A stretch of 64,000 nucleotides of DNA from Isoetes taiwanensis (taxonomy: Eukaryota; Streptophyta; Lycopodiopsida; Isoetales; Isoetaceae). Every line of letters starts with the position of its first letter. Positions within the stretch are counted from its first letter, which is position 1. The position numbers and the translations under genes were made by a program. This document shows positions 9,941-60,792 of the stretch, one piece after another. The stretch is from NCBI GenBank assembly GCA_021234155.1, contig JAJEKV010000057.1, positions 6,417,821 to 6,481,820 on the forward strand, given 5' to 3'. The notes under the pieces were generated by a model, which was not told the DNA's origin, ran no database searches, and saw nothing but the letters and a program-made list of their open reading frames with translations.

Positions 9941-10533
9941 AAAGGATGAAGAGGACTGATCGTAACATGGGAAAATATCTGAAAAGCCATCAAAGAAACA
10001 TCAGAAAGATGAATAAGATCGACTCCAAAATGCACAACATGGACTCTTACAAGCATCCAACATTAGCAGATGTGTTTTATACTCCAAAAATAATGTTTTA
10101 TGCTAGAACATATGTCAAAAACTATCGCAACAAACTAAACCAACCATCAGAACCTAACGAAAAACTCCTCCTATAAGATAATATCTATAATGAAGCATCA
10201 ATAAAAATATAAATGTCATGAAGATAAATGGTCATTAAGAGAAAAATCACACCGCAGGGCGCATAATGCCACATGGCAGCCGGAGCTAGCAATACAAGAG
10301 GATGTAGAGGGTAGCAGAGCATAGGAGAACTCAGAAAAGAAGAGAGCGTCACGAACAAAAGGCTGCCATGTGGAAGAGTCCTTACCTAATAAAGGCCACC
10401 ACGGGGCAGAGGGCCATGAAAATACAATCAATGTGAGCTTGGCGTGACAAAGGTGAGCATGATGTAACACTTCTGGAACCAAGGCGGGAGAAGGAAAACA
10501 ATAGTTATTGAATAACCGCCAATTATTGGAGAA

Positions 10534-10587
10534 AGCATCTGGGATGATGCGATAGGGATAAGCATCTGGGGTGATGCGATGGGGATA
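10534..10587 (-). repeat. 27-bp tandem duplication inside DIRS pol
   Basis: Two 27-bp copies (10534-10560 and 10561-10587) encode a repeated DAYPxRIxP unit in the C-terminal segment of the RNase H frame. The reading frame is kept. Confidence 0.85.
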
Positions 10588-11584
10588 AGCATCTTTCGTG
10601 TTAAAGATGGGTAGAAGAGCATTGGAGGGACTAGCAAATCGGTCAACATGGTGGGCACCCCACCGCAGCTCCAAGCACTGAAATACTGCAGGAGAAAGGG
10701 AAAACTCATCAAAGCTGCGGACCTTAGATAAGTAATCTGCCCATTCATTTTTAGAACGTGGGATCCATACAGGTTCCAGGCAGATATGATGCTGATAACA
10801 AAAAATGAGAACTTCCAACAATAGAACATGTAACACTGGAGAACGGGAGCCATCATTCTGCAAAAGAAAGAACACGTTCTGGCTGTCACCACGGGCGATT
10901 ACCAAAGAATTGACTAATAAGTCGATACATCTTTGGAGAACTTGAAAGAAGGCAAATAATTCCCGCCAAGTTGAAGACTGGCAGCGTTTTTCCTCAGAGA
11001 AGACTCCAAAAAAGGATAGCATCTCGGAACCAGGCACTAAGAGCCAACCACCCCATCCTTCATCGCTGGCATCAAAACCCAAGGTAGACTTGGCAACAAC
11101 AGGGGGCCATAACGGGGATCTATCAAAGTGAAGAACAACTGTCTGCCATAAGAGGAGTTCTTGACGCGCAAGTGATGACAAGGCAAATGGGATGTCCCAT
11201 AGGTCAGCATTGCGAAGGTCAAGATGAAGGCCGTATGTCAGGGCAGCACATAAGTGACTAGGCGCAAATATTGGATGAATCCCAAGAATTGACCAACTCT
11301 ACGAGCAGTGACCTGAGTTGACATAAGAAGATCAGCACAGATGGATAGGACCCTATTCTTTTTTGCAGCCGAGATGCGAAACAACCCCTCATGAGAGTCA
11401 ACAATGAAAGCTAAGAAAGTGTTGCAATGGGGAAAGACGAAAACGACACTTTTTCCAGGCCAAGACGAAGCCAGCCTGCTGCAAATCGGCGATGATATGA
11501 GATTGAAGAGAAATTGGAAATGACTGGCAAAGGAATAAGATGACATCTACATAAGGTAGGCAACGAATGCCTTAGGCACGCCAA

Positions 11585-34772: not shown

Positions 34773-36136
34773 CTAGGACCAGCTTGGTCTACTGCGTCGT
34801 CCCCACCATGGCCAAGTTGAAGAATCCAATCTGATTCCAATTTGTGGCCTCGTGCCTGGAATTGGAAAGCAATGAAAACTGCTCTGCATGGTGTCAAGTA
34901 GCTGGGCAAATTTTCGTGTTTTGTCTTTCATTGGTGACTCAACGCAATGCTTCAAATAGTCGCACATTCTCCGATGCTTGCCTTGCTGCTCCAGGCTTTC
35001 TATGACTCCATGTAGGAGTGCTTACTAGCAAAATCAGCCAAGTAATAGACAACATACGCTGCCTCATGCAAGTCAAAGTCAAGCCTTGCAGCCACTGTCT
35101 TTGAGCCACTACCAAAATAAAGATCATCGTGCATATATGGATGCCTGGCCCTTTCAATCTCAATTCTTTTCTTACCCTCACCATCCAAACCCTTGTAATG
35201 CCACTGCTTTAGCTCCACTGTCTCGCCCACCCCAATCACAAATGCCAATATATACAACCTGAGGATCAATGCATCCCTTCTCCTTTCTATACTCAAAATG
35301 GAGCTGCACATTGCCCGGATGCCAGTCCATATGCAAATACCTTTCTTGATGAAGTTTTCGCAGGCCACTACAGAATGGCATAGCCAAGTCCCCAACCCTA
35401 GAGGCAACAAATAATTTTTCTTCTGCGCTCCTCAAGGCGCATAAAGTCTATCTCAACTCTGGGGACAACTCCTAACTTTTTAAATGCAAGCTCAGCAAAA
35501 GCATTGCACCCATGACTTGTAAAAAAGGTTGCCAACGAACCTCCATTCCAAAAAGGAAAAATTAAGCCTTGCCTTTCTAAGCCGGTTGTGCTACCAATGC
35601 AGTGTATTATATATCCATGCCTAACTTGCATCCCAAAATCCCTCATGTTCTTCAACATAGCTTCCACTAACTTATTAGGATCTGTGCCCGGCTGAAAATT
35701 ATTGTTTTGAAATTTTACACAATATGGTTCATCCTTAATAACATTAGAGTCTAAAATATTGCATTTATGCACCGTGCCATATGAACCAGAACCAATTCTT
35801 TGTCTATTTATTATCAGCGATGAATCTCATTTGCAAACCAGGTTGTCTTAGCATCCGCTCTTCTACGAACTTCCCACTCCCTGTCTGTCTGTCTTTCTTC
35901 AACTTTCTGTTGCTCCAAGCCGCATTCCATATGATGGCTTTTTCTTTCAACTCTAGCCTCAAGCGATGACTATTCAAATTTGCAACTTCCGTAATCATAT
36001 TCCCAGTATTGCGGCTAAAAGCCCTTTTGGCACCTTTAACAAGCCCTACATGGTAGTCTAGCCACCCTTCCTCGCTGTTGATAATCAATTCCAAATCCTG
36101 GGCTGAGGCATTGCAAAGACGATTACACAACCAGTT
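34773..36136 (-). pseudogene. Protein-kinase-like gene, C-terminal part
   Basis: Continues the frame begun at 49490-49282; the chromovirus interrupts it. Motifs in order: glycine loop RIGSGSYGTVHKC (about 35790) with YCVKF as the candidate Lys strand, hinge-like LIFPFWNGGSL, catalytic loop LHMDWHPGN in place of HRDxKxxN, and ICDWG in place of DFG. GETVELKQWHYKG and HDDLYFGSGSKT follow. The D-W-x-P-x-N and D-W-G variants keep the two catalytic Asp residues, so the ancestor may have been active. Frameshifts lie near 35800, 35425 and 35235. Family beyond kinase fold not recognised. Confidence 0.65.
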
Positions 36137-37710
36137 TGTGACGTTCCAAGTATTTATACGGCATATGTATAAATACATTGACACGTCACCCAGTATAGAT
36201 ACGCCACCATGGGGTATGGTAACCTAGGGGGTTGACCTAAAAGGGATTTAGTTAGCTATGTTAATTAAAACATTAAGGATAATAACCTATGATTTAGGAA
36301 ATTAATAATAATTAAGCTAATTATGGTTTGGGAAGGCACCACCTGGCCAAACTCGATTGGCCAGCATGGGGATTGCTAATTGGATCCAATAAGGTGGATC
36401 ACCACCCCCTTATCAGCCAGTAACCAACCATTTGAGCCAAGGGAGCAAAATACCGAGGCAAGGACCGCGGGAGACTTCACCAAATACACTAAATCACCAC
36501 TAGCTGTTGCTGCCACCCTACTTGCAGCATCATGGAAGCCCCTCTCGATAACGGTTCCAGCCGAAACACGGGTTAGTAGTAGTTTAGCTTGTGTTTTGTA
36601 AGATAGTACTGTAGTACTCTCTGTGCTGATTGCCTTGTGGAAGTTAACCCTTGTGCTCTGTTAAGGAATTGGTTGATGTATCTATGAAGTTTTCGGGTAG
36701 CTTCCATTAAACAGGGGTTTAAAGGGGGGGTAGAGACCTCTGAGCTCAAATATGATAGTATGCTCCTAGATATAGCCCTGTAATATTCCCACTAATGCGG
36801 CCTGTGTACAAGAGACCACCGGGTCATAGATGCTATGGTCTGGCTTAGCACCAGATAAAGGACACAGTGGTGAAGTGGGGATGGGGTCTTGCACGAACAT
36901 AAAAGGCTCCTGAGACTCCTACAGTGGGCTAGGCCTGATAGCCGGTCACGTAGAGGGCCGGGTATGGGTCTGACACTCCCTGGGTGTAGAGGTGTGATCC
37001 GTATGGAGCATCTTGCACTTTGAGTAGATTTAGGGTGAGTAAGTTGAGTACGGATGCGGGGGTCGCTGATGCGGCACGTATTCTCTAGCTCACCCATGGA
37101 ACCACTGTGATCCTGGAAGGGGATGCCTCCCTGACCTGCCTCATCGGACCGGGGTGTCATGAACCCTGGAGTAGACTCAAACGGGTGATTCCTTGAGTTT
37201 GCGTCTCCGGAAGGCTATAGCGAAGCCATAGCGTGAATCGACCCATCTGCAAAGTGTGCACAGGAGGGGCGGATGGAGTGGACAACCCTAGCCGATGTTC
37301 TATGCTAGCCAACGCCATGCCAAGACTCGGTCTGCTGATCTCTTGAGGCCTAGCCGTCAGTCGATCCTCACTAGAGTCTGAGCCGGGGTAGAACCTGAGG
37401 TTTGGGGTGTTCTCTTAGTTTTAGATGTATATTCTTTGCCGTTGTCAATTGGATGGTTGCGCCACCCTTCGTGGTGGTTATTTATATCTGATTTTTGCTG
37501 TGTGCTAACCCTTGTATTCATGCTTCCGCGACGTAGGCGCCCATCGAAGGCGTGGGTCGAATGACACCTCCGTGTCCTTCACCCGAGCCTCCTCACGTAG
37601 ATGGCCCGGGTTAGACGGAGGGCCCTGCTCATGGCGAGATGGTCGCCATGGGAGGGGAAAGTCCCCGTATGTATACGGCCGGGGGTCGTATATATTCAGG
37701 GAGCGTCACA
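36137..37710 (+). repeat. 5' LTR of the chromovirus
   Basis: 1,574 bp. Opens with a nested palindrome: GTGACGT...ACGTCAC enclosing GTATTTATAC/GTATAAATAC (36138-36188). Differs from the 3' copy by scattered substitutions and two clustered differences near 36440-36470 and 36650. Confidence 0.96.
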
Positions 37711-37711
37711 G

Positions 37712-37723
37712 TGGTATCAGAGC
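37712..37723 (+). other. Primer-binding site, initiator tRNA-Met type
   Basis: TGGTATCAGAGC starts one base after the 5' LTR, the standard plant Ty3/copia primer site. Confidence 0.95.
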
Positions 37724-38502
37724 CGTGATTTCGGTTGCACGAAATCATAGCACTGACCAAACACTAACTCGTTAGCCTGGTAGTTAGGAGGAGGCTAAGT
37801 TAATGTGTTGTTAGTCCTCTTTGATGTTTGGTTCTGTGTTAGGTTAAATCAAGAAATTATAAGTTACAAGAAGTTAGGGCGACTGGAGTGCCCAAGGTTG
37901 GAAGGAATTATAAAATTTTATAGGTAGCTCAAATGAAGGAGAAAGTGGTTCCATTGGATCGGGCGTACCCCAAATACCCTAGGACAGTCGTCGCTGGCGG
38001 AAAAATGGTCAAGGGAAGGCCCGAAAGTCAACTCGGGGGCCGCTTGAATTTTGTCGCCTTGCAGTTGACGTGGGAGAGTCAAAAATGCAGTCGGCGCCCG
38101 ACCACACCGAGCGAGTCAACGCGGCCCCGAAAGTCAACTCGGGTGCCGCTTGCTTTTCGTCGACCCCCAGTCGCGGTGGGAGCGCGTATAATGCAGCCGG
38201 CGCCCGACCGTATGCGCCGCGTATTTCCGTCGTATAAATTATTTTATAATAATAAAATTAAAAAGTTAATAAGGAAAAAATTTAAATTTTAAAAGTTAAC
38301 TGGCCGTTAAAGTTTCTTTTTGGTTATTTTGTTTTCGCCTTGCCTTCAGCGCCTTCGGCCGCCGGAATCGACGACCGCCATCGCCACCAGACTTGACTCT
38401 GCTTTCTCGCCCTTGTTCCTTGCGACCCCTAGCGCCTTCCTCCCCGCTTCTCTAGCTGCAAGCGCCTTACCGTCTGCTCTCTTAGACCTTAGTGCTACCG
38501 CT

Positions 38503-39795
38503 ATGGCCAACACCAAGAGCGCCCCGGACCCCTCTACCCTTACCATAGCCGAGATCTATACCATGATCGCCCGGTATATGGCTACTGACCCGGCTTTCAT
38601 TGACATACTTCTAGACGAGCTAGTAAACAGGTTTGACAACAATGATAGGATCCCCTATCCCATCTACCACTTCTCGGAGCCATTCTTGATCCGGCTGAAC
38701 CTTCGCCAGCTTTCCTACACCATGGTCGAGCAACATGACATGGTCATGATGCTGATTAAGTTCTATCCTCCCGAATGCAAGGGACACACCGAGGAGGAGG
38801 ACATCAGGACAGAGGCCGATCGTATCAGAGGCTTGGCAAGGGAAGATGACCATCGGGAAGTGGAGCGAGCTGATACGGCGGCTCGGGGAAGGGAGTACCG
38901 GTACTTAGGGGACGGACTTGCCGTCATAGATGGCAGGGCAATTGAGGTTCCCCCGTACCAATGGCATGAAGCTTCCCAGAGCTTCATGTGGGGAACCCCG
39001 ATCCCTGATATCAGTCTGGATTACCTAACGACGATCCAGATTGATATGAGCCAGCGACCCAATCGGTACCATGCTGAACTTCTTCGCCGTAGCGCAGCAC
39101 ACCATTTCGCTCAGGTTGAAGAAGATCTGAGGAGAGCCCGGGAGTTCCGGGAAGAGCAGGAGAGGAACGAACGAGCGGAGAAGGCTCGGCAGGACCAGCT
39201 GAACCCACAGGACGAAGGGGGATCAGGGAGTGGGCCGGGCCCAATACCGACCGAGCACACCACCATTAAGCACCGGAAGAAGGCCGTGGCCCGGAAATCC
39301 GGCAGTCAATACAATGAGAAACTAAGGACTGTCGGAGCTTTTGGGAAGAATACGAGCTCCAGCCGGAGGCAGGAGCGAGTGGACGCGTCCCGGCCAGCCG
39401 TAGGGGCCAAGACGGTGCCAGCATCAAGGGTGCCGCCTACCAACCCTGCCCCACAAAGGAAACCCCATCGGTACCGACCCGGTACTGTTGCCATATGGGA
39501 GATCCGTAAGTTTCAGAAGTCGACCCAACTTCTGATACGAAAGCTTCCTTTCCAGAGGTTGGTCCGGGAGATTGCACAGGAGTTTAAGACCGACCTCCGT
39601 TTCCAGACATTCGCTATTTTGGCACTCCAAGAGGCTGCGGAGGCCTATCTGGTGGCACTCTTTGGCGACGCCAACCTTTGCGTGATTCACACAAAGAAAG
39701 GATTTAGCCCTCGCCCGCAGGATTCGGGGCGAGCGTCCTTAGCATTTTTGTTGTTGCAAGCGTTTTCCATTGTAAATACTCTTTTTGATAATTGA
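38503..39795 (+). CDS. Chromovirus ORF1 with C-terminal histone H3 fold
   Basis: About 430 aa from the ATG at 38503 ([11 protein letters not shown]); the frame is open further, to 38320. Residues 1-210 are unlike any family I know. A charged coiled stretch follows ([20 protein letters not shown]) and a Gly/Pro linker. Residues about 258-320 resemble a histone tail, with [13 protein letters not shown] containing ARKS as around H3 Lys9. Residues 320-401 are a clear H3 core: [73 protein letters not shown]. Similarity ends at the position of H3 residue 116, so the last helix segment is replaced. Loop 1 has canonical H3 length, unlike CENH3; the long tail is CENH3-like. No stops or shifts. Role unknown; chromatin targeting is inference. 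Confidence 0.9.
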
Positions 39796-39963
39796 TAAAA
39801 ACTTTTTTTTATATATTCGAAATTGTATAAAGGACTTTTTTTTATTTTGTGACAAATACGAAATTGCTGACGTCAGCATAATAAAAAGGGTTAAAAAAGG
39901 AATTTCAGAGTTCATTTCAATTGTTCTCTCTGTTTTTCTTGCATCCTCCTCCCTTCTAGCGCC
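39796..39963 (+). promoter_or_regulatory. Inter-ORF region: possible internal promoter or intron
   Basis: AT-rich with a perfect TGACGTCA (39868-39875), the core bound by plant bZIP factors, and AT-rich TATA-like DNA 10-20 bases after it. It ends in a pyrimidine tract and CCTTCTAG, a good splice acceptor, four bases before the ORF2 start codon. A GTAAATAC donor-like site lies at about 39771. Either a separate promoter for ORF2 or splicing from ORF1 is possible. Confidence 0.4.
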
Positions 39964-41364
39964 ATGGCAGCCACCGACCTTCTCGCATGGTATCAAGACG
40001 AAGAGCATTGGGATCCGCAAGTGCCCTTCAACCTGTTGTGGCCCTTGCTATGCCAGCGCCTAGACCTCATCACCAATATGCAGCGGCACCCAGATTATGC
40101 CGGGTTTTTAGACTTCTACATGGAGGAGATGCTTCCTTTGTGTATCCCTCTTGGGGATCCTCCCCAATTGTATCTCGAGCGGGAGGTAGTCCGGGAGATG
40201 TTAGGGGGCGACACCCATGCATATGATGTGCTGAAGGGAAAGCTCAGATGGGGCAAACACCTGCCCGTTGTGCAGCATCAGGGGCGGCAATATCTTGAGG
40301 TTGCCTTCGCCCTAGCCATCCTCATGGATCAATACGTTGAGGATGAAACCTTGCCTGTAGAGCAAGGCAAACTCCCTGAATCTTCTGAGGAGGGAGATGA
40401 TGAGCATATAGGTATGGGCGACTTCGCCCGTTGGAAGCAATTGGCCGAGGAGATGCCACCACGCCGGGAGCAAGCTGCACACTTGTCAGGGCTAGATGCC
40501 CTTCCAGTTATTTATCACCAAGGGCAAGAATATCTTCTCTTGGATGATATTATCTGGACTTACCACATGATAGTCGGGTTTAAGCGCCGGCGAAAGGATC
40601 ATGTGCTTTATGAGCTAGCGGAGTATTGCATGGATGATTTCATCGACTTCGCTCCTATTGAGCTTCCCCCGGAGATGCAGCAGCTACTTCAGTTCCGCCA
40701 AGAGACCATAGAGACGGCTGAGACTCTGCTACGTCTTCGGGAACTGGTAATGCAGGAACCGACCTCTCAACCCTCACCGGATGCCTTTACAGCTATGGGA
40801 CCCCATGTCCCCAACATTAATATGGTTGAGGTCCCCTCCGATTCGGATGAGGAAGGAGAGGATTTATACCATAATCCTGCTCATTTGAGGGAAGAGCAGC
40901 AGGAACTCAAGGAAGAGGAAGTCCCTATGGACTTAGACAAGGAGGTGGCCACGTCAGAGACCCCACAAGGGAAGGTATTGGGAAACCACCTTACCCGCTT
41001 CTTCTTATCAGCCTTCCGGCAGGGGCAAGTTCTTTTTATAGCCCGAGATTTAGGGCCGGAGGCTGAAGCTTCATGGTGGACCCTCCGTGCTCTCTCCACA
41101 TTGGCCAGGCACAAGAAGCTTTCATATCGTACGTTCACTTATGTACTCGTGCGACGGGATCTTGCTCTGACGGCCTTGGGCCAAGATATTGCACCCTGGA
41201 TGAGCATAAAGCTCCTTACCGCAGCCCCATTGGTTGTTGCCTATCCGCCAGAGGTTGCATCCATTGCGGCTGCCACAGTAGACCCCGGGGTGACTCTGCT
41301 GCGACACCGACCGCCGCCACCACCTCCTAGGTCTACAAATGAAGAGGGAGGACCTAGTTCTTAA
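39964..41364 (+). CDS. Chromovirus ORF2, unknown 466-aa protein
   Basis: Intact frame starting CC-ATGG-C, a good plant start context. No known family recognised. Visible features are a duplicated motif, HLPVVQHQGRQYLEVA (about residues 100-115) and ALPVIYHQGQEYLLLD (about 179-195), suggesting two related domains. A strongly acidic stretch occupies residues about 280-330 (PSDSDEEGEDLYH, EEQQELKEEEVPMDLDKE), and the tail is Pro-rich (RPPPPPPR). Acidic stretches are common in histone chaperones, and its neighbour encodes a histone fold; a link is speculation. Codon use matches ORF1 and gag, so it is a settled part of the element. Confidence 0.8.
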   Translation: MAATDLLAWYQDEEHWDPQVPFNLLWPLLCQRLDLITNMQRHPDYAGFLDFYMEEMLPLCIPLGDPPQLYLEREVVREMLGGDTHAYDVLKGKLRWGKHLPVVQHQGRQYLEVAFALAILMDQYVEDETLPVEQGKLPESSEEGDDEHIGMGDFARWKQLAEEMPPRREQAAHLSGLDALPVIYHQGQEYLLLDDIIWTYHMIVGFKRRRKDHVLYELAEYCMDDFIDFAPIELPPEMQQLLQFRQETIETAETLLRLRELVMQEPTSQPSPDAFTAMGPHVPNINMVEVPSDSDEEGEDLYHNPAHLREEQQELKEEEVPMDLDKEVATSETPQGKVLGNHLTRFFLSAFRQGQVLFIARDLGPEAEASWWTLRALSTLARHKKLSYRTFTYVLVRRDLALTALGQDIAPWMSIKLLTAAPLVVAYPPEVASIAAATVDPGVTLLRHRPPPPPPRSTNEEGGPSS

Positions 41365-41622
41365 ATAATTGTACTACGTTTTTTTTTGTATTGCGTATGA
41401 TTTGTATTGGCAAATTCTTTAGCCATTCTATAATGTGATACACCCCTTTCCTGATCGATTGTGATTATTGTGTTGAGGAATACAATTAAAAATTGTTCTT
41501 TTCCATGATGTGTTCTTCAAATTATTGGAGTTAGAGTATAATGAACATATGCAACGCTCTATATTCATTTCCATTGTCTTGCAGAAGAGACCCTTTGGGA
41601 ATATGAGGAGAGGATTACAGAC
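41365..41622 (+). other. Inter-ORF region with splice-acceptor-like end
   Basis: T-rich and AT-rich, ending TTGTCTTGCAG at about 41583. The reading frame of ORF3 is open upstream of its ATG as far as this AG (EETLWEYEERITD), which suggests that ORF3 is an exon joined to an upstream one. Confidence 0.4.
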
Positions 41623-42042
41623 ATGATCAGGAGGGATGATCCAGGGCCACCCGACCAGGACTATGGCCAAAGATATGGGGAATATCCAGAATGGGACGAA
41701 GGTTATGAGATGGAACCCCCGCCACCAGGAGAACCCTATGATCCAGCAAAAGGGTTGGAGATAGTTAATATCCTCAGGGACAGAGCTTTCGAGGACCTGA
41801 AGCAGACTCTGTGCCGCTCGTGGGACTATTGGAGCATGTCCAGGCACGAAGCCTTCGAGGACGCCAACGACCACCTGTGGCAACTCTTCTATGCTTTAAG
41901 GAGGCTTTTCAATCTCCTCATTATTAGCCCAACGTGGGAATACCAACCAGTCATTGTCCAGGCCTGGGCACGCTACAAGCTCGTTAGGGCTGTGCGTGAG
42001 AGTGTTCGCTACTCGATCCTGTACCCCTTCGCGAACCCCTAG
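41623..42042 (+). CDS. Chromovirus ORF3, unknown 139-aa protein
   Basis: Acidic, Pro-rich N-terminus (DDPGPPDQDYGQRYGEYPEW) followed by a helical, Trp/Arg-rich domain (RDRAFEDLKQTLCRSWDYW, LWQLFYALRRLFNLL). No family recognised. Its frame extends to an AG at 41583. A GTGAGAG donor-like site near the end (about 41993) could join in frame to the AG at about 42300 before gag. It may therefore be an N-terminal exon of gag or a separate product. Confidence 0.6.
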   Translation: MIRRDDPGPPDQDYGQRYGEYPEWDEGYEMEPPPPGEPYDPAKGLEIVNILRDRAFEDLKQTLCRSWDYWSMSRHEAFEDANDHLWQLFYALRRLFNLLIISPTWEYQPVIVQAWARYKLVRAVRESVRYSILYPFANP

Positions 42043-42258
42043 ACCGGGTCTTTCCAGTTTTGTTTTTTTTATGCTGTATGTGAGTTCAACTTCAAGTTTC
42101 AGCTGTATCATGTTTGTCCTTGTGTAATACTCCTGTATCAACTTCTGGTAGTACTAAGGTGTGGAACTGTAATGGAAAAGTTTTCCTCTTATAATAATAA
42201 ATTTTCTTTATATTCTCTCTCTACACTCTATCCGACATGATAAAATTTGTAAGAATTT
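42043..42258 (+). other. Region between ORF3 and gag
   Basis: AT-rich, with TATAATAATAAA at about 42190 and a CT-rich tract after it. Could be a promoter/leader for gag or part of an intron ending at GATTTAG (about 42300). Confidence 0.4.
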
Positions 42259-43167
42259 ATGTGCTGTAATTATGCTTATACCTTTTTCATGCTCGATTTA
42301 GACGGTGTACGCAACGTCGCCTGGCAGACGCCCTCCAACGCCAGTAGGCTGACACCTGAACAGGAACTGATGTTAATGAAAAGACAATTAGTCGAATTAC
42401 AGGCTTATGTCTTGCATGCCAACCCACCACAGCAAACACAGGAAGACGGACCGGAGTTACCTCCGCTACCGCCAAGCCCACCTGCACAACAACCATCTCC
42501 ACCTGGACCCAGTCCTATATCTGCACAGAGGGGACCTCGTTCTAAGCGCCGTCGGAGTTCCTCTAAGGATAGCGCCACCTCCTCACACTCAACCACTTCG
42601 GTGTCTTCTGAGTCATCGGTATCAGCTGGTGACCATGCAAAGCGCTGGGATAAGGAATACCGTAAAACGGTTGATACCGCTATAACTAGTATATGGAAGA
42701 ATAGGAAACTGGCCCAGTTTGATGGGAAATCTAGAGGCGGACTGAATGCAGAGTCCTGGTTGGACGAAATGAAGGAGTTTGGCAAGTCCTATGGCATGAC
42801 GGAAAAGCATACAGGAAAGGTTTCCACCACAAATCTTACAGGAGCTGCCCGTATTTGGTGGAAGGGCTATGCTAGAGCCAAGCATCTGGATAGAAGCAGG
42901 TGCAAGTTCAAGAAGTTTGCTAAAGCTTTTAAGTCGCATTATGTGCCTCGTGCGCACAAATGCCAGCAAATTTAGACCTTTTATAGGTTAGAACAGAAAA
43001 GTATGTCAGTTCAGACTTATACTGATGAATTTATGCGCCTGAGGCTGTATGTACCAGGTATGAATGAGAAGAGGGCAGTGGAGGGTTACATTGAAGGTTT
43101 GGCCCCATCAATTAAACGAATGGTGAAGGCCATAGATCTGAAATCGGTTGCGGAAGCTGAAGGCTAA
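42259..43167 (+). pseudogene. Chromovirus gag
   Basis: Capsid-type protein. Pro/Ser-rich N-terminus (PPLPPSPPAQQPSPPGPSP) and a Ser-rich stretch, then the retrotransposon gag domain (LAQFDGKSRGGLNAESWLDE, AARIWWKGYARAKH, KAFKSHYVP). A TAG at 42973-42975 interrupts the domain; the frame then stays open (SVQTYTDEFMRLRLYVPG, VEGYIEGLAPSIKRMV) to about 43167. There a one-base shift moves into the pol frame, as if gag-pol were originally one polyprotein. Confidence 0.88.
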
Positions 43168-45814
43168 AGCATTGGGCCTCGAAGAGGAGACACCAAGGAT
43201 CCAGTATCCGCGTCCTGCTCCTTACTCGCAGCCACGGCCGTCCACACCCTACAAACCCCGCTCGCCAAGTCCGGGGCCCTCTCAGCAGAACACTTATGGC
43301 CGCCAGGAAAAGAAAGTCACCTTCAGCACGCCAGATAAACAGAGAAATGTCGGTAAGGAAGTTCGAAACCTCTTACAGTCTATTCCTAAAGAGGCACGAG
43401 AACAGCTCCGCCGAGATAAGGCATGCTACAGGTGTATGCGGCCAGGACACTTTATGCACAATTGTCCTTATGTTACGCAGACTGCCCAGCTGGCCATGGC
43501 CGACCTCGATTGGGACGATCTAGAGTCGACTTTACCTGTCGAAGAGGAGGCTCCCGAGTATATTCACGGTGCGTCTCATATCCTTGCAGCTATAGAAACC
43601 GGCAATGCTGAAAGTCAGCCTGCTGTCATTTCTACCATAGGTCAAGTAGACAGTAAGCCTTTTGTAATTCTTATGGATACGGGAAGTACACATAATTTTG
43701 CTTCTCCTAGAATGGCCCAGGTCTTACAGCTGGAAACATTGAGGTCCCGACTAAGACCTGTCACTCTAGCCAGTGGTAAGATCAGACATACTCATGGCCG
43801 TCGCATCAACCTCAAGATGCAGTTGCCGGGTGCACCAGTTGCTATGGGTGCCGAGTTGATGGATATCGGTAAATACGACCTCATTGTCGGTATGGAATTC
43901 TTGGCATCTGCAAAAGCCAACATAGACTGCGAGAAACGGGAAGTTACCGTTAACGCAGCTAATGGAGCCCGCATAACTATAAAAGGTGAACCATTCAACC
44001 CTATCATGCAGTCTATGTCCATCAGGCAGTTAGATAAAGCTATACGCAAGGAAAAGCTCCTCTGCGTCATTAGGCTTGCTTCCATAGAGTCAGGTGCTAA
44101 ACAGAAGCAAGTAATAGATACCTTGCCAGAGGGGATTGCTCATCTTCTCCGGGAATTTGGTGATCTTTTCCCAGATGAGATCCAGAAGCTCCCTCTTTTT
44201 AGAGGGGTGGAATGTGAAATAGCTTTAGAGCCAGGTACCAAGCCTACCAGCAAGGCCCCATACCGTATGAGTCCTCTAGAATTGGCAGAACTTAAGAAGC
44301 AACTTCAGGAGTTACTAAACCTAGGTTTCATCCGACCTAGCGTTTCGCCTTTTGGCGCTCCTATTCTCTTCGTTAAGAAAAAGGACGGCTCGCTGAGGAT
44401 GTGTATTGATTATCGTCAACTCAACAAGCATACCATCAAGAATCGTTATGCTTTGCCTAGAGCAGATGACCTAATGGATCAGTTGCAAGGGGCTAAGTAT
44501 TTCTCAAAGATTGATCTACGCTCCGGATACCATCAGATAAGGATTAAAGAGGAGGACATCCATAAATCTGCTTTTCGCACTAGGTATGGGCATTATGAAT
44601 TTTCAGTTATGCCTTTTGGATTAACTAATGCCCCAGCAACTTTCATGCGACTAATGAATGATGTCTTCCGACAATACTTGGATGATTTTGTTGTTATTTT
44701 CTTTGACGACATTCTCATCTATAGTAAGACCCTAGAGGAGCATCAGACGCATCTTAGATTGGCCCTACAAAAGCTAAGGCGTCATCAACTCTATGCCAAG
44801 TTCTCTAAGTGCAACTTTGCCACTCCGAAGGTCGATTATTTGGGCCATGTCATTTCAGCAGAGGGAATTGCTACAGATCCGGCAAAGATAGAAGCCGTAA
44901 GGGAATGGCCTATTCCAGGAAATGTTTCCGAGGTCCGAAGTTTCTTGGGATTAGCAGGATATTATCGAAAATTTGTAAAGGATTTTGCAAGGATTGCAGC
45001 ACCTCTTACAAATCTTACAAAGCATGAGAAGGTGAAAGATTGGATGGAGCACTGGAAGGCAAAGGTTCAGGAAAGTTTCCAGCAGCTTAAGGATGCCTTA
45101 ACGTCAGCACCAGTTCTCACATTGCCTGATCCTGAAAAGGATAAACTAGTGGCAACGGATGCCAGTAAGATTGCCACCGGTGGAGTCCTAATGCAGGAGG
45201 GGAGGGTTATTGCCTATGATTCAAAGAAAATGAATGAGAGGGAGCAGCGATACCCTACCCATGACCAGGAATTGTTAGCCATTGTCCGCGCCCTGCGGAT
45301 ATGGAGACACTATCTTCTTGGTAGAAGATTCCAATTGGATACGGATCATCAAAGCCTCCGTTATTTATCCACCCAGCTAAATCTCAATCTCTGTCAGAGA
45401 AGATGGATGGAATTCCTGGAGGAATATGATTTTGAGATTATGTATAAACCTGGCAAGCACAATGTGGTTGCGGATGCGTTGTCACGCCATCCCTTGGTCA
45501 CCCGAACCCATTGTAACGCAATTTCTACACTCACCAGTGAGTTTGGGAAACAGATAGAACGGACCTTGGCCACGGATCCCGAGTTCTGTGAAGTTTGGGA
45601 TAGCTTGACTAAGGAAGCTCGAACAGATAAGGAACGTGAAGCTTTCCGTTCGTATAAGAAAGAAGGCAACTTGTTATATTACAAGGATAAGTTGTGTGTA
45701 CCTGAGATTTCAGGAGTACGTAAGCTCATTCTCCATGATACACACAATAGCCCTATAGCTGGACACGCAGGGTTTATGAAAACCTACTTTAAGATTCGAT
45801 CCAGCTATTTCTGA
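43148..45814 (+). pseudogene. Chromovirus pol: zinc knuckle, protease, RT, RNase H
   Basis: 888-codon frame. CCHC knuckle [14 protein letters not shown] (about residue 94), aspartic protease [16 protein letters not shown] from [20 protein letters not shown] through [13 protein letters not shown] and [11 protein letters not shown] to [10 protein letters not shown] (a variant of the usual F/Y-I/V-DD box with both Asp kept). RNase H starts [13 protein letters not shown] and ends [10 protein letters not shown]. The frame stops at TGA 45812-45814 inside the HHCC zinc domain of integrase ([14 protein letters not shown], then SYF-stop). A Trp codon is the family's normal residue at this place, so it is a nonsense change. 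Confidence 0.93.
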
Positions 45815-45820
45815 CCTTCT

Positions 45821-47080
45821 ATGAAAAAGGACATTGCTAGGTACATTAAGCAGTGTCAGGTGTGTCAGCAAACGAAAGCTGAGCAGTTGAGGATTCCAGG
45901 CGAGTTGCAACCTTTGGATGTGCCCAACGCCAAATGGGAAGTGATAACCATGGATTTCATTGTGGGCCTTCCACGTACTCTCCGTGGGTATGACGCGTTA
46001 ATGGTAGTGGTCGACAAATTGTCCAAAATGGCTCATTTCTTGCCATGTCGGACCACGGATACAGCTTTTGATACTGCTCTGCTATTTGCAAAGGAGATCT
46101 TCAGATTACACGGAATGCCACGGGTTATTATTTCCGACAGGGATCCCAAATTTGTAAGTGCATTCTGGAAAGATTTCTTTCCCACCATCCAAACCAAGCT
46201 TGCTATGAGTATGGCATATCATCCTCAAACAGATGGTCAGACAGAGCGTACCAATCGCATTATAGAGGACATGCTGCGAAGTTATGTGTGGAGTAGGCAG
46301 TCACAATGGGCTGATTATATCTATCTCGTCGAGTTTGCCTATAACAGCATGAAACAGGAGTCTTCCAGAATGTCTCCCTTCATGATAAATTATGGTTATC
46401 AATGTCTTACTCCAGACACATGGCATAACCCCGTTTCTAAGGTGGAGGTTTCTCAACAACTCCTCTTGGAGATGCAAGCTCTAGTCGAAGAAGTTCGTGG
46501 CTACTTATTAGCTGCACGCAGTCGTCAGAAGAGTGTAGCTGATAAGCACAGACCCCCACGCATTTTTCAGGTGGGCGAATCAGTTTGGCTTAAGATTAAG
46601 GTGAAGCAAGCCAAGCTTAAGATTGGCAACTGCAAAAAGTTGGCCCCCAGATGGGCTGGACCGTTCAAAATTATTGACCGTGTTGGAGAACAGGCATATC
46701 GTTTGGATTTGTCGCCCCGCTTGAAGATCCACAAGGTCTTTCACGTGAGTCTTCTGAAACAACACACCCCTGATCCAGAGGAGGTTTTGGATACCCCAAC
46801 CCTCCTAGAAATGATAGAAGAGCAGCTAGAAATAGTGCCTGAAGCTCTTCTTGATCGAGCTTATAAACAAACTAGAAGGACTCAAATGTTGCAATATTTG
46901 GTTAAATGGAAGCACTTACCAGTTGAGGATGCTACTTGGGTGATGAAGATAGACCTTGACAAGCATTATCCGGACTTCATGCGGGAATCTCAAGGCCGCA
47001 CCATCAACGATGCTATCAACCCCGCAGCCGGCGGTAAGCTTGGAAGCTTGATTGCCAAGGGTAGCGCCTTAGAGGGGTAG
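45821..47080 (+). pseudogene. Chromovirus integrase core and chromodomain
   Basis: Same frame as pol after the TGA. CQVCQQTK completes the HHCC zinc domain. The catalytic core shows MDFIVGLP, IISDRDPKFVSAFW and YHPQTDGQTERTNRIIEDML (D, D, E). The GPY-type segment is KLAPRWAGPFKIIDRVG and KIHKVFHVSLLKQH. The C-terminus (about 46890-46990) is a chromodomain of the variant retroelement type, YLVKWKHLPVEDATW, expected to steer integration to marked chromatin. Confidence 0.93.
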
Positions 47081-47671
47081 ATGCATCCTAAATAATAGTT
47101 ACCGATGATGACATCACCTTGTATTCTCTAGGACGTGGTGTACTGTCAATGTTGACCTGATCACGACTTGCTTGGACAGCATATAGTAATAGGTCGCGTT
47201 CATCTCGGCTATAATGGGAACTTCACCATTCCCTATGCTGCAATGAATTGCAAACCATAGACATGATAGGTTCCCTGGGAGATAGACTTTTCTTTTATTT
47301 AATTTAAGGGGGTGGCCCCTTCAACCACAATCTAATTATATATACTGATATACCGACATGTGCAGGCCAGTGAGCAGTACGTGACCTACCCATGTTAGAG
47401 GGTTGCTGATGGCCCGCTTTCTTCAGTTCTATTTTGTCTACACGTCATGTTTTGTTGTTACTCTCATGTTGGTATTGGACTTAGGTCCTTGAACTTTTGG
47501 TTATGATAATCATGTAAAATGCACCTTGGTGCTTAAACTGTTTTCAACTTCAAAGTTTTCATATATATATTACCTTTGAAAATATGGGATTACCTTCCTT
47601 CATAATGTCATATCCTATAAATGTAGCTAACCCTAATGCTGAGGACAGCATTAGTTCTAAGGGGAGGAGAA
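47081..47671 (+). other. 3' untranslated part of the chromovirus
   Basis: Between the integrase stop and the 3' LTR. AT-rich, no open frame of note, ends in the polypurine tract. Confidence 0.7.
47659..47671 (+). other. Polypurine tract
   Basis: AAGGGGAGGAGAA directly precedes the 3' LTR and would prime plus-strand DNA synthesis. Confidence 0.9.
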
Positions 47672-49281
47672 TGTGACGTTCCAAGTATTTATACGGCATA
47701 TGTATAAATACATTGACACGTCACCCAGTATAGATACGCCACCATGGGGTATGGTAACCTAGGGGGTTGACCTAAAAGGGATTTAGTTAGCTATGTTAAT
47801 TAAAACATTAAGGATAATAACCTATGATTTAGGAAATTAATAATAATTAAGCTAATTATGGTTTGGGAAGGCACCACCTGGCCAAACTCAATTGGCCAGC
47901 ATGGGGATTGCTAATTGGATCCAATAAGGTGGATCACCACCCCCTTATCAGCCAGTAACCAACCATTTGAGCGCCCAAGGAGCAGCTGAGCGCCCAAGGA
48001 CTGTTGCAGACTTCACCAAATACACTAAATCACCACTAGCTGTTGCTGCCACCCTACTTGCGGCATCATGGAAGCCCCTCTCGATAACGGTTCCAGCCGA
48101 AACACGGGTTAGTAGTAGTTTAGCTTGTGTTTTGTAAGATAGTACTGTAGTACTCTCTTTGTTGATTGCCTTGTGGAAATTAACCCTTCTGTGGTAAGTA
48201 GGATTACATTTCAATTATGAATGGTGCTCTGTTAAGGAATTGGTTGATGTATCTATGAAGTTTTCGGGTAGCTTCCATTAAACAGGGGTTTAAAGGGGGG
48301 GTAGAGACCTCTGAGCTCAAATATGATAGTATGCTCCTAGATATAGCCCTGTAATATTCCCACTAGTGCGGCCTGTATACAAGAGACCACCGGGTCATAG
48401 ATGCTATGGTCTGGCTTAGCACCAGATAAAGGACACAGTGGTGAAGTGGGGGTGGGGTCTTGCACGAACATAAAAGGCTCCTGAGACTCCTACAGTGGGC
48501 TAGGCCTGATAGCCGGTCACGTAGAGGGCCGGGTATGGGTCTGACACTCCCTGGGTGTAGAGGTGTGATCCGTATGGAGCATCTTGCACTTTGAGTAGAT
48601 TTAGGGTGAGTAAGTTGAGTACGGATGCGGGGGTCGCTGATGCGGCACGTATTCTCTAGCTCACCCATGGAACCACTATGATCCTAGAAGGGGATGCCTC
48701 CCTGGCCTGCCTCATCGGACCGGGGTGTCATGAACCCTGGAGTAGACTCAAACAGGTGATTCCTTGAGTTTGCGTCTCCGGAAGGCTATAGCGAAGCCAT
48801 AGCGTGAATCGACCCATCTGCAAAGTGTGCACAGGAGGGGCGGATGGAGTGGACAACCCTAGCCGATGTTCTATGCCAGCCAACGCCATGCCAAGACTCG
48901 GTCTGCTGATCTCTTGAGGCCTAGCCGTCAGTCGATCCTCACTAGAGTCTGAGCCGGGGTAGAACCTGAGGTTTGGGGTGTTCTCTTAGTTTTAGATGTA
49001 TATTCTTTGCCGTTGTTAATTGGATGGTTGCGCCACCCTTCGTGGTGGTTATTTATATCTGATTTTTGCTGTGTGCTAACCCTTGTATTCATGCTTCCGC
49101 GACGTAGGCGCCCATCGAAGGCGTGGGCCGAATGACACCTCTGTGTCCTTCACCCGAGCCTCCTCACGTAGATGGCCCAGGTTAGACGGAGGGCCCTGCT
49201 CATGGCGAGATGGTCGCCATGGGAGGGGAAAGTCCCCGTATGTATACGGCCGGGGGTCGTATATATTCAGGGAGCGTCACA
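47672..49281 (+). repeat. 3' LTR of the chromovirus
   Basis: 1,610 bp. It has an extra segment of about 36 bp near 48190-48225 and a different short block near 47970-48010 (GAGCGCCCAAGGA, present twice) compared with the 5' LTR. Confidence 0.96.
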
Positions 49282-49490
49282 CAGTTCATGAAAACTGGTC
49301 TCAAAGTAGACCATGCTTGTTGTGGTCTACTTATTTTTCTACGCGGTGGTGGTGCGGAAGATGACTCAGGTTGCAGCTCTGTTTGAGACACCAATGCCTC
49401 TGCTGGTTGTGGCTCTACTTGCGGCTCTATCTGAGACACTAATGCCTCTGCTGCCACTAAGTTAACTTCTGCTCTCTCTTCTGAAGCCAT
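49282..49490 (-). pseudogene. Protein-kinase-like gene, N-terminal part
   Basis: Starts MASEERAEVNLVAAEALVSQ with a repeated AEALVSQ-E-Q unit, followed by PPPRRKISRP. Removing the chromovirus with one CAGTT copy joins …RPVFMN to WLCNRLC… in frame at 36136. This shows that the two parts were one coding exon. Confidence 0.7.
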
Positions 49491-53550: not shown

Positions 53551-55121
53551 ATGGTCGTTCGATCCACACCCACAAGCATCAAGACGGAAATGGTGGGCAG
53601 AGCACGCAATAGGCAGCACAATGAATATTATCCCAAGTGTAGGAAAGATGCCCAATGTAGTTGCAGTATGTGTGAAGCAAGCATGGATGCAACAAAGGAT
53701 CTTAGACCTCCAGGAAGCAGCATTCTTAAGCAGATCAATAATAACAGTAATCATCCTGTTCATTGCAGAATTTCTTCGCCCCTCTCAAGAGGGTTCTTAT
53801 CTTTATCTCCATCTCCAGGGAACAAGGAAAACTTTAACATGTTTCCTAATTTTGATAGCCAAGAAGGAATAGAGGCATTTGTGGCCGCAGCTATGTCTCC
53901 ACCACATAAGGTTTTCAACCAATCTTCTGCTGACTGCCTATCTGAAAAGCCTCTTAGAAGGAAATCCTTCATGGAATGGTCGAAAAGGATATGGGTTGTA
54001 ATTGTATTAGTTTTCATAATAGAATTTGCCGCACCTGTTTTGTTAAGGGCTTTTCTCAAGCCTGAACTAGATGCAGAGAAGATCAGGGCATTTGGTGAAG
54101 ATTCTATGTCAAGGATTAAGCTTGAAGACAGATTGGATTTATTGCAGCGGCGGATTTCGAGAGTTGTATCAGGGAAAGAGGTCAGAAATTGCACAGGAGG
54201 TAGTGGAAAGTGGTTTTTGACAGAGGTATGTGCTTGATTCGTATGGTCCAATTGTGTCAATGTTGGTTGTTTATAGTATGTCATCTATATAACAATAAAA
54301 GATTTGCACTACTGTCCTATGTGGATTTGCACTGTTTGAGCTAGGCACTTAGATTGACAACCATATCATTTAGTACTATAACAGATGCTTTAAGCATCAA
54401 TCAATGTGATTGAATCAAAATAAATGTTTTAAGAATACTGAATTTGCTTAAAAACTGGTCTTGTTCTTTTTCATCTGATAGAAGCTGCTGCACCATATAT
54501 CTGTAATGTCAGAAAGTTTTAGCATGTGAAGACATGTTGATGCAATGTCTAGTTTCAAATAAAAAAGGTTTGTATACATTTGGGATGTGAAAAATTAGCT
54601 TGTATTTTCTGTGCAGGCCAGTTTGGTTCATTCCTCTTGCAACCTCTATTCAACAATGTCAGAAGTTGTTTCAATTTGGGGGTATCCAATGAAGACTTCT
54701 GGAATGATAGGTCGTAGCTTTACCGATAAATCATTTACAGTTCTTTCTGGTCGTGTTATTGAGGTGAGAAATTCAAATTGCATTTTCTATTTCACAACAA
54801 ATTGCCAATCTAAAAGGGGGTTTGAATTATGCTGTATATCAGTGGCCAGAAGGGGGGCTGAAGTATATAGTACGGAATGAAGGAGAATCCTGGGTCCATC
54901 CAAGGTGGGCTGCATCCACACTTCAATTAGATCAGAATACATGGATATTAGAGTATCAACCTGGAATGTTTTCAAGGTGTCTTGGAGGATTTTCTGCCCT
55001 GTCATATGCTCTCAGAAACGTAGCAAAGAGCCTTCTTATGAGGTTAAAGTTTGCTATTGACTCTGCTGCATTTGTGTCCCAAGTGCCTTGGCCACGTGAG
55101 GTCATTCCACTTCCTACATGA
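53551..55121 (+). CDS. ERG2/sigma-1-receptor-like membrane protein, three exons
   Basis: Exons 53551-54225, 54617-54763 and 54843-55121 with GT-AG introns give about 366 aa in frame. ERG2 of fungi is the sterol C-8 isomerase; the animal sigma-1 receptor shares the fold in the ER membrane. A transmembrane helix WVVIVLVFIIEFAAPVLL lies at about residues 147-166. After it come SLVHSSCNLYSTMSEVVSIW, GMIGRSFTDKSFTVLSGRV, WPEGG, and AASTLQLDQNTWILEYQPGM, which follow the sigma-1 order (…GRYWAEI…SGT…W-EG…NTWMVEYGRG). The roughly 145-residue N-terminal extension (Cys-rich, Ser/Pro-rich) is unusual for the family. I placed the third exon at TGTATATCAG|TGG because an earlier AG gives a stop. No lesions seen. 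Confidence 0.75.
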
Positions 55122-58000: not shown

Positions 58001-60792
58001 CTACAACTGGAATGCATTCACACCTAGTTTTGATTTTAACTCATGAAGCCTGTTTTCTCTTAAAGCCTTTGTGAATATATCTGCAACTTGAATGCCTGTA
58101 TAAAGATATTCTACAGATATGATCTTCTCTACAACATCCCTGACAAAGTGCATTTGTAATTCGATATATTTTGTTCTTTCGTGTAATACAGGGTTTCTTG
58201 TAAGAGCTATACAGCTCATGTTATCACAGTATAAAGTTGTAGGTTTTTCTTGTGCTTCACCCAACTCATGCAACAATCTTCTGAGCCATATGATTTCCTT
58301 AGTTGCAAGCGCAGTGGCTGCATATTCTGCTTCAGCAGATGATAATGCTATAGCTATCTGTTTCTTGCTTTTCCATGCAATGGTTGCATTTTCTACAATC
58401 ATGGCATATCCTGATGTAGATTGCCTTGTATCTACGTCTCCTCCCCAATCAGCATCTGTGAATCCTTGCAATGTCAAATCCTTTGAATCATAAATTAAAC
58501 CATGATCTGCAGTACCTTTTAGATATCTAATTATACGTTTTGCAGCTATCCAATGGCCTTTGCCAGGGTTATTGCAAAATCTACTGAGCATATTCACCGC
58601 ATATGTTATATCTGGTCTTGTTCCATTTGCTAAGTAAATTAGACAGCCAATTAACTGTTTATATGGAATGTTCGCCATCTCTTCTATTTCAGCTTTTGTT
58701 TGCGGACACATGTCTTTGCTGATCCTTTGTCCTGGCACTATGGGAGTCTTGGCAGGTTTGCAATCACTCATGTTGAACCTTTTTAACAGACTTTGAATAT
58801 TTCTTGACTAACACAGTATCCCTTTTTGCTTATCCCTTGTAACTTCAATTCCTAAGAAGCTTTTCAGCTCATTTAAGTCTGTCATTTTAAACTTCCTTTT
58901 CAAGACATTTTTGCAATGTTCCAAACATTGTAAGCTATTAGCTGCCATAATGCAATCGTCCACATATAAGGCAATCATGCAGCACTCCTTTTCTACTTTG
59001 TAAATATAGATATTTCCATCTGTATTTAGCTTCGAAAAACCATGTTTCCTCAAATACTCATCCATACATTTATACCACTGTCTGGGTGATTGCCTAAGTC
59101 CATATACTACTTTCCGTAGCTTCCATATTTTACCTTCACCTTTTTCAAAGCCATTTCTTCATCTAAGTCAGCATTTAAAAACGCCGTAGACACATCCATG
59201 TGATGTAAGTGCATACTTTTTGCATTTGCAAGTGCTAATAGCAATCTGATACTTGTTAATTTGACTATCGGAGCAAAAGTTTCATCAAAGTCAAGTCCCT
59301 TCTTCTGAGAATATCCCTGTGCTACAAGCCTTGCTTTGAACCTTTTCGTCTTGCCATCTGGTCCAGTTTTAAGCCTGTAAATCCATTTACAGCCTACAAT
59401 ATTTTTCCCCTCTGGCTTAGTAACTACTTCATATGTTTTATTATCATGGAAAGACTTCATTTCAGTCCTCATTGCATCTTTCCATTCTCTACTATTTTCA
59501 GATTCAACAGCCTGCTCAAACGTTTGTGGGACATCATCTAGTATAGCCAAGACATTAAGTAATCCTTCTTCCTTTTGTAATCTCTTGCTTCTCCCCGTAT
59601 CCAACCTCCCATAATCATCAATGTTCTGTTTTGCTTCATCTCTCAACTTTTCAATTTCAGTTTTTCTCTTTTTCTGCATTTTGATCTCAACTTGTTGTGA
59701 CTTGCCTTCAATTTGGGCAACTTGGTTTGGCATGTCTCCTTGCATTTCAGCCGGTACAACATCATTTTTTCCTTCTCCATCATTGTCATTGTCACTATCA
59801 TCATCAATGTAAGTAAGCTCACCTCCTTTATTATTTCTGTTGTAGGTAGACTCACTTGCCTTATTACAAACAGTCTTTGTTGTCTTGTACTCTCTATACA
59901 GCATAGATTCTTCAAATATTACATCTCTACTTATTAATATAGTCTTTTCCTTTGGCTCAAACATTCTAAATGCTTTACTTTCAGTATCATAACCTACTAG
60001 AAAAGCCACTTGCGCTCTATCATCTAATTTCTTTCTATTTTCCTTATGCACATGAACATAGCCAAGACACCCAAACACTTTGAATTTTGCAAAGTCTATT
60101 TGAGCATTTGGGTTCCACAGTTCTTCCGGTAATTTACCTGAAACACTGCTACTTGGAAGTCTATTTTGAATGTAGATGGCAGTATTTACAACCTCTTCCC
60201 ATAAATAATTAGGCAAGCCTGTATGTTTCAGCATTGCTCTGGCAGCATTCAAGATCGTCCTATTTTTCCTTTCGTTCACGCCATTTTGTTGCGGACTATG
60301 AGAGCATGTCAACTGTCTGGCAATTCCACATAATTTACAAAATGCTTTAAATTTGCCGGATAAGTATTCCCCTCCTCTATCACTCCTTAAACATTTCAGC
60401 TTTCTTCCGGTTTCTCTCCCACTTTCAGCTAAGAAATCTTTAAAAGCATCAAAGGTCTCACTTTTCTTTCTTAGTAGGTAACATCTGCATCTTCTACTAT
60501 AATCGTCTACAAATATCAAAAAATACCTCTTTCCACTTCTACCTGTCACATTAATAGGGCCGCATAAATCTGAATGCACTAATTCCAAGACATCGTTAGC
60601 TCTCTTCCCATGCTTTGCGAATGGCAGCCTTGAATGCTTGCCCAACATGCATCCATAGCAGAATTTTCTGTTACAAACATCACTTATTTTTCCTTTGATC
60701 CTTTTTTCTTTAAACAACCGACTGATATTCTTCATGTGTGTGTGAGCGAGCCTTTCATGCCACAATTCAGCAGAGTTCTTATCCACGAGCAC
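58001..60792 (-). pseudogene. Copia pol: integrase, reverse transcriptase, RNase H
   Basis: Integrase: zinc domain WHERLAHTHMKN...CYGCMLGK, core DYSRRCRCYLLRKK, SDRGGEYLSGKF and NGVNERKNRTILN. RT: EGKNIVGCKWIYRLKTGPDG, VAQGYSQKKGLDFDETFAPI, then intact ALYVDDCIMAA. RNase H: FTDADWGGDVDTRQSTSGY, ALSSAEAEYAATALA, LYCDNMSCIAL and HVADIFTK-like VADIFTKAL. Breaks: a frameshift near 59130 before KVVYGLRQSPRQWY and a TAG at about 58808. The gene start is lost through truncation. Confidence 0.93.

Follow-up and report, generated by a model that had tools for sequence, protein, structure and literature searches.

The locus described here raises the question of whether a plant retrotransposon can take over a host core histone and, if so, what such a protein would be doing for the element that encodes it. 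The window (the whole stretch of Isoetes taiwanensis DNA that was analysed, 64,000 nucleotides in length) had been described from its letters as holding a Ty3/gypsy chromovirus with a histone H3 fold in an intact extra ORF. We found a complete LTR element of 13.1 kb at 36132-49286, a Ty3/gypsy chromovirus with the following features.

36132-36136, unstranded: target-site duplication CAGTT, left copy, 5 bp, matching the right copy
36137-37710, plus strand: 5' LTR with TG..CA ends
37712-37724, plus strand: primer-binding site TGGTATCAGAGCC, 3' of the 5' LTR, whose tRNA we take to be iMet
38503-39795, plus strand: ORF1, an open frame of 430 aa, 319 element-specific residues followed by the histone H3 core
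39460-39693, plus strand: H3 residues 37-114, in frame, identical to host H3 gene L089 at 66 of 78 positions
39698-39742, plus strand: rest of the H3 C-terminus, beginning with K122 and ending at the usual stop, in a different frame (that of 39641), placed by alignment with six open copies
39915-39959, plus strand: pyrimidine tract and YAG, probable 3' splice site, just 5' of ORF2
39964-41364, plus strand: ORF2, 466 aa, without known domain
41623-42042, plus strand: ORF3, 139 aa, without known domain
42304-43166, plus strand: gag; stop codon TAG at 42973, change of frame to pol near 43150
43148-45814, plus strand: pol, with zinc knuckle (weak), protease, RT, RNase H and the start of integrase; TGA at 45812
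45821-47080, plus strand: remainder of integrase, with C-terminal chromodomain at 46835-46981
47659-47671, plus strand: polypurine tract AAGGGGAGGAGAA, 5' of the 3' LTR
47672-49281, plus strand: 3' LTR
49282-49286, unstranded: target-site duplication CAGTT, right copy

Two TG..CA LTRs, the target-site duplication, primer-binding site and polypurine tract, together with Pfam matches (RVP_2, RVT_1, RT_RNaseH and rve) in the order PR-RT-RH-INT, identify a Ty3/gypsy element, with the rve match, at 27.7 bits, lying under its Pfam cut-off of 32.6. The chromodomain at the integrase C-terminus (PF00385, E 2.7e-8, 34 bits, cut-off 25.1) makes it a chromovirus, and the preliminary description was right on both counts. 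Among the best 120 matches to the RT-RH region, full-query alignments include ones of 64-68% identity to seed-plant proteins and plant-like contigs, and from its RT motifs we judge the clade to be probably Tekay/Del-like. Both LTRs are bounded by TGTGACG..CGTCACA and carry 30 mismatches across 1573 aligned sites (K2P 0.019, or 0.014 without a dense cluster of 9), which at borrowed rates of 4e-9 to 1.3e-8 dates the insertion to approximately 0.5-2.4 million years ago. Outside a 35-nt gap and the dense mismatch cluster the pair is nearly identical; slippage, gene conversion or a chimeric reverse transcript may account for both. Elsewhere in the window, the minus strand carries a degenerate retroelement at 9557-11181 (RVT_3, E 2.4e-4, just under cut-off), in which a stretch resembles a tyrosine recombinase by eye and which is possibly DIRS-like, and a Ty1/copia element at 58001-60792, with gag_pre-integrs, rve, SH3_retrovirus and RVT_2 matches at 59107-60792 and a stretch without Pfam match at 58001-58771 that by eye continues it in another frame. 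Inspection by eye of a 228-aa ORF at 53551-54237, which has no Pfam match and is perhaps an exon of a plant gene, suggests a cysteine motif and, at the C-terminus, a membrane helix.

The histone core at the end of ORF1, previously recognized by eye, is borne out by homology searches: residues 303-399 match Pfam Histone (E 2.4e-28), the sole Pfam match in the ORF, and residues 296-400 match chain 7ux9_E, named Histone H3.3 and presumably of plant origin, as the best hit among solved structures (E 3.3e-40). KPHRYRPG lies at 39460, where the preliminary description had put it, and the core starts at ORF1 residue 320, such that in window numbering 319 element residues stand in place of the H3 N-terminal tail. 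Replacement of the tail had likewise been proposed; where the canonical tail (ARTKQTARKST..) would be, we find element sequence. Searched whole against the protein database, ORF1 matched 3284 proteins at E 0.001, and the four examined among the best 120 were tandem or repeated H3s. A search that requires shared 5-residue words yielded 3161 candidates for residues 1-290 among 5.8 billion proteins, none of which reached E 0.001, and the best match of the N-terminus to solved structures had E 0.14. Viral contigs held no homologues of ORF1 or ORF2. AlphaFold, given ORF1 as a single sequence, produced a model of low quality (mean pLDDT 43); confidence was high only around residues 210-230, inside a long predicted helix at 186-233. 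Two other ideas about ORF1 were discarded: that it and ORF2 are duplicates of each other, given that they share no similarity (best E 0.72), and that a histone-mimic motif, ARKS (H3K9/K27-like), is a general feature of the linker, given that only 27 of 58 open copies have it (ARKT 8, ARKA 1, none 22).

In the window, H3 is in frame to residue 114 only. Just before the H3 C-terminus, 17 nt are missing that are present in six of the six nearest open copies, and in the frame starting at 39641 the C-terminus reads to its stop with three changes from canonical H3. Because this deletion shifts the frame, ORF1 reads unrelated codons up to 39795, and the early end of the H3 similarity therefore reflects decay of one copy and not design. 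ORF1 had been called intact, and the loss of similarity before the last helix had been taken as a property of the protein; neither holds, as the C-terminus at 39698-39742 sits in another frame and 58 of 88 copies are open to the normal H3 end. Gag (TAG at 42973) and integrase (TGA at 45812) are also broken in this copy, and the different frames of gag and pol near 43150 could be normal frameshifting. Within residues 37-114, the window H3 departs from the commonest family residue at positions 48, 49 (W), 111 and 114.

To ask how far the fusion extends, we searched the window's own assembly (1,658,258,908 bases in 1110 sequences). ORF1 returned at least 98 scored places, window included, from 9333 first-look candidates, at 78-100% identity; the match extends to residue 400 or beyond at 97 of the 98 and to residue 371 at one. 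A search with canonical H3 returned at least 150 scored places from 9041 candidates, of which 15 are host H3 genes over their full length (97-99%) and the other 135 have identities of 71-87%. All 15 places examined among the 135 (L104-L118) were element-type H3. Of the 135, 42 fall on ORF1 places by position and 93 lie elsewhere. Eight of the 93 were read; for the remaining 85, sequence identity is the sole basis of classification, and a few of them could be H3-like genes of another kind. In total, at least 106 places were recognized as ORF1 or proved on reading to be element H3, and the full count is at least 191. We read 88 ORF1 loci, window included, the remaining 10 of the 98 places lying outside this set; in 72 a reading frame stays open for roughly 330 codons or longer, and 58 of the 72 run through to the H3 stop, three of these 58 being shorter than the whole ORF1 (open stretches of 356, 367 and 402). 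The entire H3 core, residue 37 to stop (99 residues), is present in 56 of the 58. The segment might have proved absent from every other copy of the element, or to be a host gene fragment inserted in the window copy only; its occurrence at 98 or more places, in a clade separate from host H3, disposes of both possibilities.

The fusion is also associated with the retroelement machinery beyond the window. A search with RT gave at least 106 scored places (38,355 candidates, window included), at 21 of which an ORF1 or H3 match is listed upstream in the same orientation, 4.7-5.8 kb away in 20 cases and 8.9 kb away in the last, compared to a mean of 0 in four shifted controls; counting ORF2 as well, 30 of the 106 have a listed match upstream and 76 have none. 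For ORF1 or H3 alone, 85 of the 106 have nothing at 3-9 kb upstream among the matches listed. Neither count shows or excludes copies without H3. At two loci fetched at the place expected for RT, one (L119) holds RT at 95% identity and one (L120) only a 26-aa piece.

ORF2 travels with ORF1. It returned at least 91 scored places in the genome, 90 besides the window at 88-95% identity, and in 45 of the 91 matches (window included) it lies 131-280 nt downstream of a listed ORF1 or H3. Compared with solved structures its best E was 0.12, and its single-sequence AlphaFold model has a mean pLDDT of 35; it is, on sequence conservation, a second conserved element protein without known domain. By eye, it contains an internal repeat-like motif, HLPVVQHQGRQYLE / ALPVIYHQGQEYLL. 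An AG..ATGGC motif precedes ORF2 in 52 of 58 copies, 51 of them YAG, with a mean pyrimidine content of 96% (lowest 29%). Because this pyrimidine tract and YAG are conserved just before its ATG, ORF2 is probably made from spliced RNA. ORF3 and gag-pol are possibly made from spliced RNAs as well, and alternative splicing may express the element's ORFs; no splice donor was found in the element. Several further observations concern this arrangement. In the leader 5' of ORF1 (38340-38460), two acceptor-like YAG sites, at 38348 and 38454, pass the scan. By eye, an acceptor-like YAG precedes ORF3 (41560-41584; YAG 41583-41584) and does not pass it, and a weaker one precedes gag (42270-42301). The leader also holds a 119-aa ORF with an ATG at 37933-38292, between the 5' LTR and ORF1, which may be due to chance.

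We next consider the origin of the histone part. After removal of 7 duplicates from 71 H3 sequences, the 64 distinct element sequences form one clade (UFBoot 100, stem 0.655) apart from the 15 host genes, and a split with support of 97 unites this clade with L099 and L103, two of the host genes, in a tree whose root is arbitrary. A tree including CENH3 had been suggested at the outset; ours separates the element H3s from 15 intronless host H3s, and leaves outside it host CENH3 and host H3 genes with introns, which the search would not find whole. In host-element comparisons, each of the 960 pairs is saturated at synonymous sites (pS 0.92); pN is 0.113, and GC3 is 0.62 in the host genes against 0.45 in the element. 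Tree and saturation fit one old capture. E77 and L90 occur in 15 of 15 host H3s read; among the element sequences, E is the commonest residue at 77 (33 of 56, with Q in 21) and L90 is present in 55 of 56, a sharing that fits an H3 source in this plant lineage. As for the host genes themselves (L089-L103), the 15 are intronless and all have E77, D77 being found in the Closterium query sequence; three have T87, one has H87 and T31, and one has K42. We favour a history in which, long ago, the coding sequence of a host H3 would have been taken up by a chromovirus family and now forms the 3' end of that family's first long ORF, the core from residue 37 to the stop being fused in frame to 319 element residues in a protein that the family appears still to use.

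A captured host sequence could also be a functionless passenger amplified along with the element. Transposons often pick up genes, the copy in the window is broken, and in the fungus Pseudocercospora fijiensis the H3 copies of a hAT element are reported to be all inactivated (PMC6710886). We compared rates of substitution across ORF1. Over the 1653 pairs of the 58 open copies, which are not independent, dN/dS (Nei-Gojobori, NG86) was 0.033 for H3 (mean dS 0.67), 0.112 for the N-terminus and 0.223 for the linker. Restricting the comparison to 29 disjoint nearest pairs, with intervals from a column bootstrap and a slightly different rule for the border between N-terminus and linker, gave values of 0.067 (0.045-0.089), 0.180 (0.153-0.208) and 0.249 (0.179-0.336), respectively. 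The H3 value drops with depth, from 0.108 at dS 0.02-0.1 (20 pairs) to 0.031 at dS 0.5-1 (897 pairs), as expected if young differences are decay and old ones have passed selection. These estimates leave out the 30 of 88 copies not open to the H3 stop, and picking open copies biases against stops but not against a contrast between parts of one ORF. Judged by these ratios, purifying selection is holding the ORF1-H3 fusion and acts more strongly on H3 than on the rest of ORF1. An H3 dN/dS of 0.03-0.07, below that of the remainder of the ORF and falling with depth, and the fact that 58 of 88 copies keep the frame open as far as the H3 end already contradict the passenger reading, to which we give almost no credence. 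The histone part could have been evolving neutrally in all copies, and it is not; the proposed capture of H3 by a plant chromovirus, in a retroelement-specific ORF1, stands as one that spread through the family and has been kept by selection.

What selection has kept may indicate what the protein does. Across the 99 H3 columns, tallied in 56 copies (2 of the 58 carry deletions), 85 positions retain the host residue in at least 90% of copies, positions 41, 77 and 134 are variable, and 11 changes are fixed, with the host residue under 10%: Y54F, E59Q/D, S86T, S87F, V89I, G102A, E105G, T107A, I124L, Q125A and A135P. On lists of positions taken as background from nucleosome work, conservation extends to 22 of 24 positions that contact DNA and to 11 of 11 in the H3-H3' bundle. 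The preliminary description considered a normal nucleosomal H3 unlikely on account of the missing end; the intact bundle, and the full 99 residues in 56 of 58 open copies, point the other way. Because surfaces that are needed only inside a nucleosome are kept, we favour entry into nucleosomes as a tail-swapped H3 as the selected role, at a probability of roughly 0.55. The step in which we have most confidence is that ORF1-H3 would pair with host H4 and enter nucleosomes in this form; with less confidence, the retroelement part would sit in place of the H3 tail, and because it replaces the tail such nucleosomes would be without the K4, K9, K14, K27 and K36 sites. The changed patches at 86-89 and 102-107 may alter which chaperone deposits the protein.

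These same patches bear on a different role, that of a decoy which occupies H4 or the H3-H4 chaperones (ASF1, CAF-1, HIRA), is itself not deposited, and would lower host nucleosome assembly on new element DNA. Positions 86, 87 and 89 belong to what we take to be a chaperone-reading patch, 87-90 presumably being where chaperones tell replacement from replicative H3s, and 105, 107, 124 and 125 lie near the H3-H3'/ASF1 side; fixed changes at all of these, and a bulky fusion that could trap chaperones, are what a decoy might show. Yet a soluble decoy has no need of the DNA-contact positions, 22 of 24 of which are kept, and an apparent clustering of changes at 86-90 was rejected as not significant (p 0.079, from 14 positions differing from Closterium H3). 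We consider a decoy improbable, though worth keeping in mind.

N-terminally divergent H3s are typical of CENH3, and CRM relatives of this element target centromeres, so the fusion might be a CENH3 mimic that steers insertions there. CENH3 has a divergent, longer loop 1. The element H3 has loop 1 FKTDLRFQ, as in host H3 and of canonical length, along with host residues at 85 of 99 positions. Its copies are also dispersed: among 148 of 237 loci, on 35 contigs, we saw no clustering of insertions, with a median nearest-neighbour distance of 1.38 Mb against 1.55 Mb simulated (p 0.22). A centromeric route is accordingly very unlikely.

A role inside the particle is somewhat less remote. With its basic linker, its histone core and a predicted helix at 186-233 that could oligomerise (in a low-confidence model), ORF1-H3 might condense element cDNA or RNA in the particle or pre-integration complex, in the manner of a nucleoprotein. 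Against this, the element is already equipped with gag and a zinc knuckle (weak match), the H3-H3' bundle is kept by selection, and it is well established that H3 without H4 folds or wraps DNA poorly; we regard packaging as quite unlikely.

Returning to the nucleosomal reading, its last step is the one we hold least firmly: element chromatin containing the fusion might escape silencing based on the H3 tail, or the fusion might serve as a chromatin adaptor for the pre-integration complex. That ORF1-H3 replaces host H3 on element chromatin, leading to silencing escape or to the marking of sites for integrase, seems to us somewhat less than an even bet. The preliminary description offered function as conjecture, a grading we retain. 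It also took the chromodomain to be a reader of modified H3, and here the evidence is unfavourable. The best solved match is Chromo domain protein 1 (2dy8, E 1.5e-6), which we take to be the second chromodomain of yeast Chd1, and, by eye, one of the three aromatic cage residues is kept while the first and third are replaced; it is thus not a type I (HP1-like) chromodomain. Because the methyl-lysine cage is, by eye, lacking, we do not propose a loop in which the element reads the H3 it supplies. Cage-less chromodomains have been placed in type or group II, with partner or mechanism described as unknown (PMC6317226; PMC12786077), and Neumann et al. 2019 list the type II domains of retroelements without an identified partner (PMC6317226).

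We know of no earlier LTR retrotransposon encoding a core histone, and the titles and abstract openings of open-licence PMC papers, a set outside which lie most subscription papers and all preprints, named none. The nearest precedent is a fungal hAT DNA transposon with an H3-like gene (H3L) in Pyrenophora tritici-repentis (PMC3538342), with related captures in P. fijiensis and five further fungal genomes (PMC6710886). The likeness lies in a mobile element that carries and multiplies an H3-like coding sequence (PMC3538342; PMC6710886). In Pyrenophora, according to that account, H3L is a separate ORF in a DNA transposon, with 26 very similar genes (PMC3538342), and the amplified copies of P. fijiensis are described as RIP-inactivated (PMC6710886). 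The Isoetes element, by contrast, is a plant LTR retrotransposon in which H3 is fused to an element protein and old, diverged copies are under purifying selection; it has LTRs and RT instead of the terminal inverted repeats (TIR) and transposase of a hAT element.

Viruses provide a second parallel, in that the genome of a parasite again specifies a core histone whose N-terminal tail has been altered; the viruses reported are DNA viruses, and include CpBV-H4 of Cotesia plutellae bracovirus and H3-like proteins with orphan N-terminal extensions of about 170 residues in two 'late phycodnavirus' MAGs (PMC9145170), with a further report of viral histones elsewhere (PMC5423620). The main text of the former source is free of the words retrotransposon, retrovirus and reverse transcri- (PMC9145170). 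Among plant Gypsy elements, those of Phalaenopsis are alike in having an extra ORF with a host-like domain, but theirs is an AlkB-type RNA demethylase, and section 12 of the same paper, in which 121 angiosperm genomes were screened for additional domains, mentions no histone domain (PMC9289625). A survey of plant LTR elements sorted Ty3/gypsy extra-ORF proteins into 314 groups and, over all extra-ORF proteins, found 21.4% to be similar to known domains (PMC6317226), and the word histone is absent from the main text of the I. taiwanensis genome paper (PMC8566536). With other plant chromoviruses the Isoetes element shares the domain order PR-RT-RH-INT-chromodomain, and it differs from them in its three extra ORFs 5' of gag, the first of which ends in H3.

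Plants silence transposons largely via marks on the H3 tail and through the choice of which H3 variant is deposited. A tail-less H3 maintained by selection across many copies would amount to a direct natural experiment on this control and, if the nucleosomal reading is true, a parasite would be altering the substrate of silencing rather than its enzymes. ORF1-H3 would also provide a testable partner for the type II retroelement chromodomains, whose target is given as not identified (PMC6317226). Collectively, the near-unchanged state of the H3 part suggests that this element uses a home-made histone on plant chromatin.
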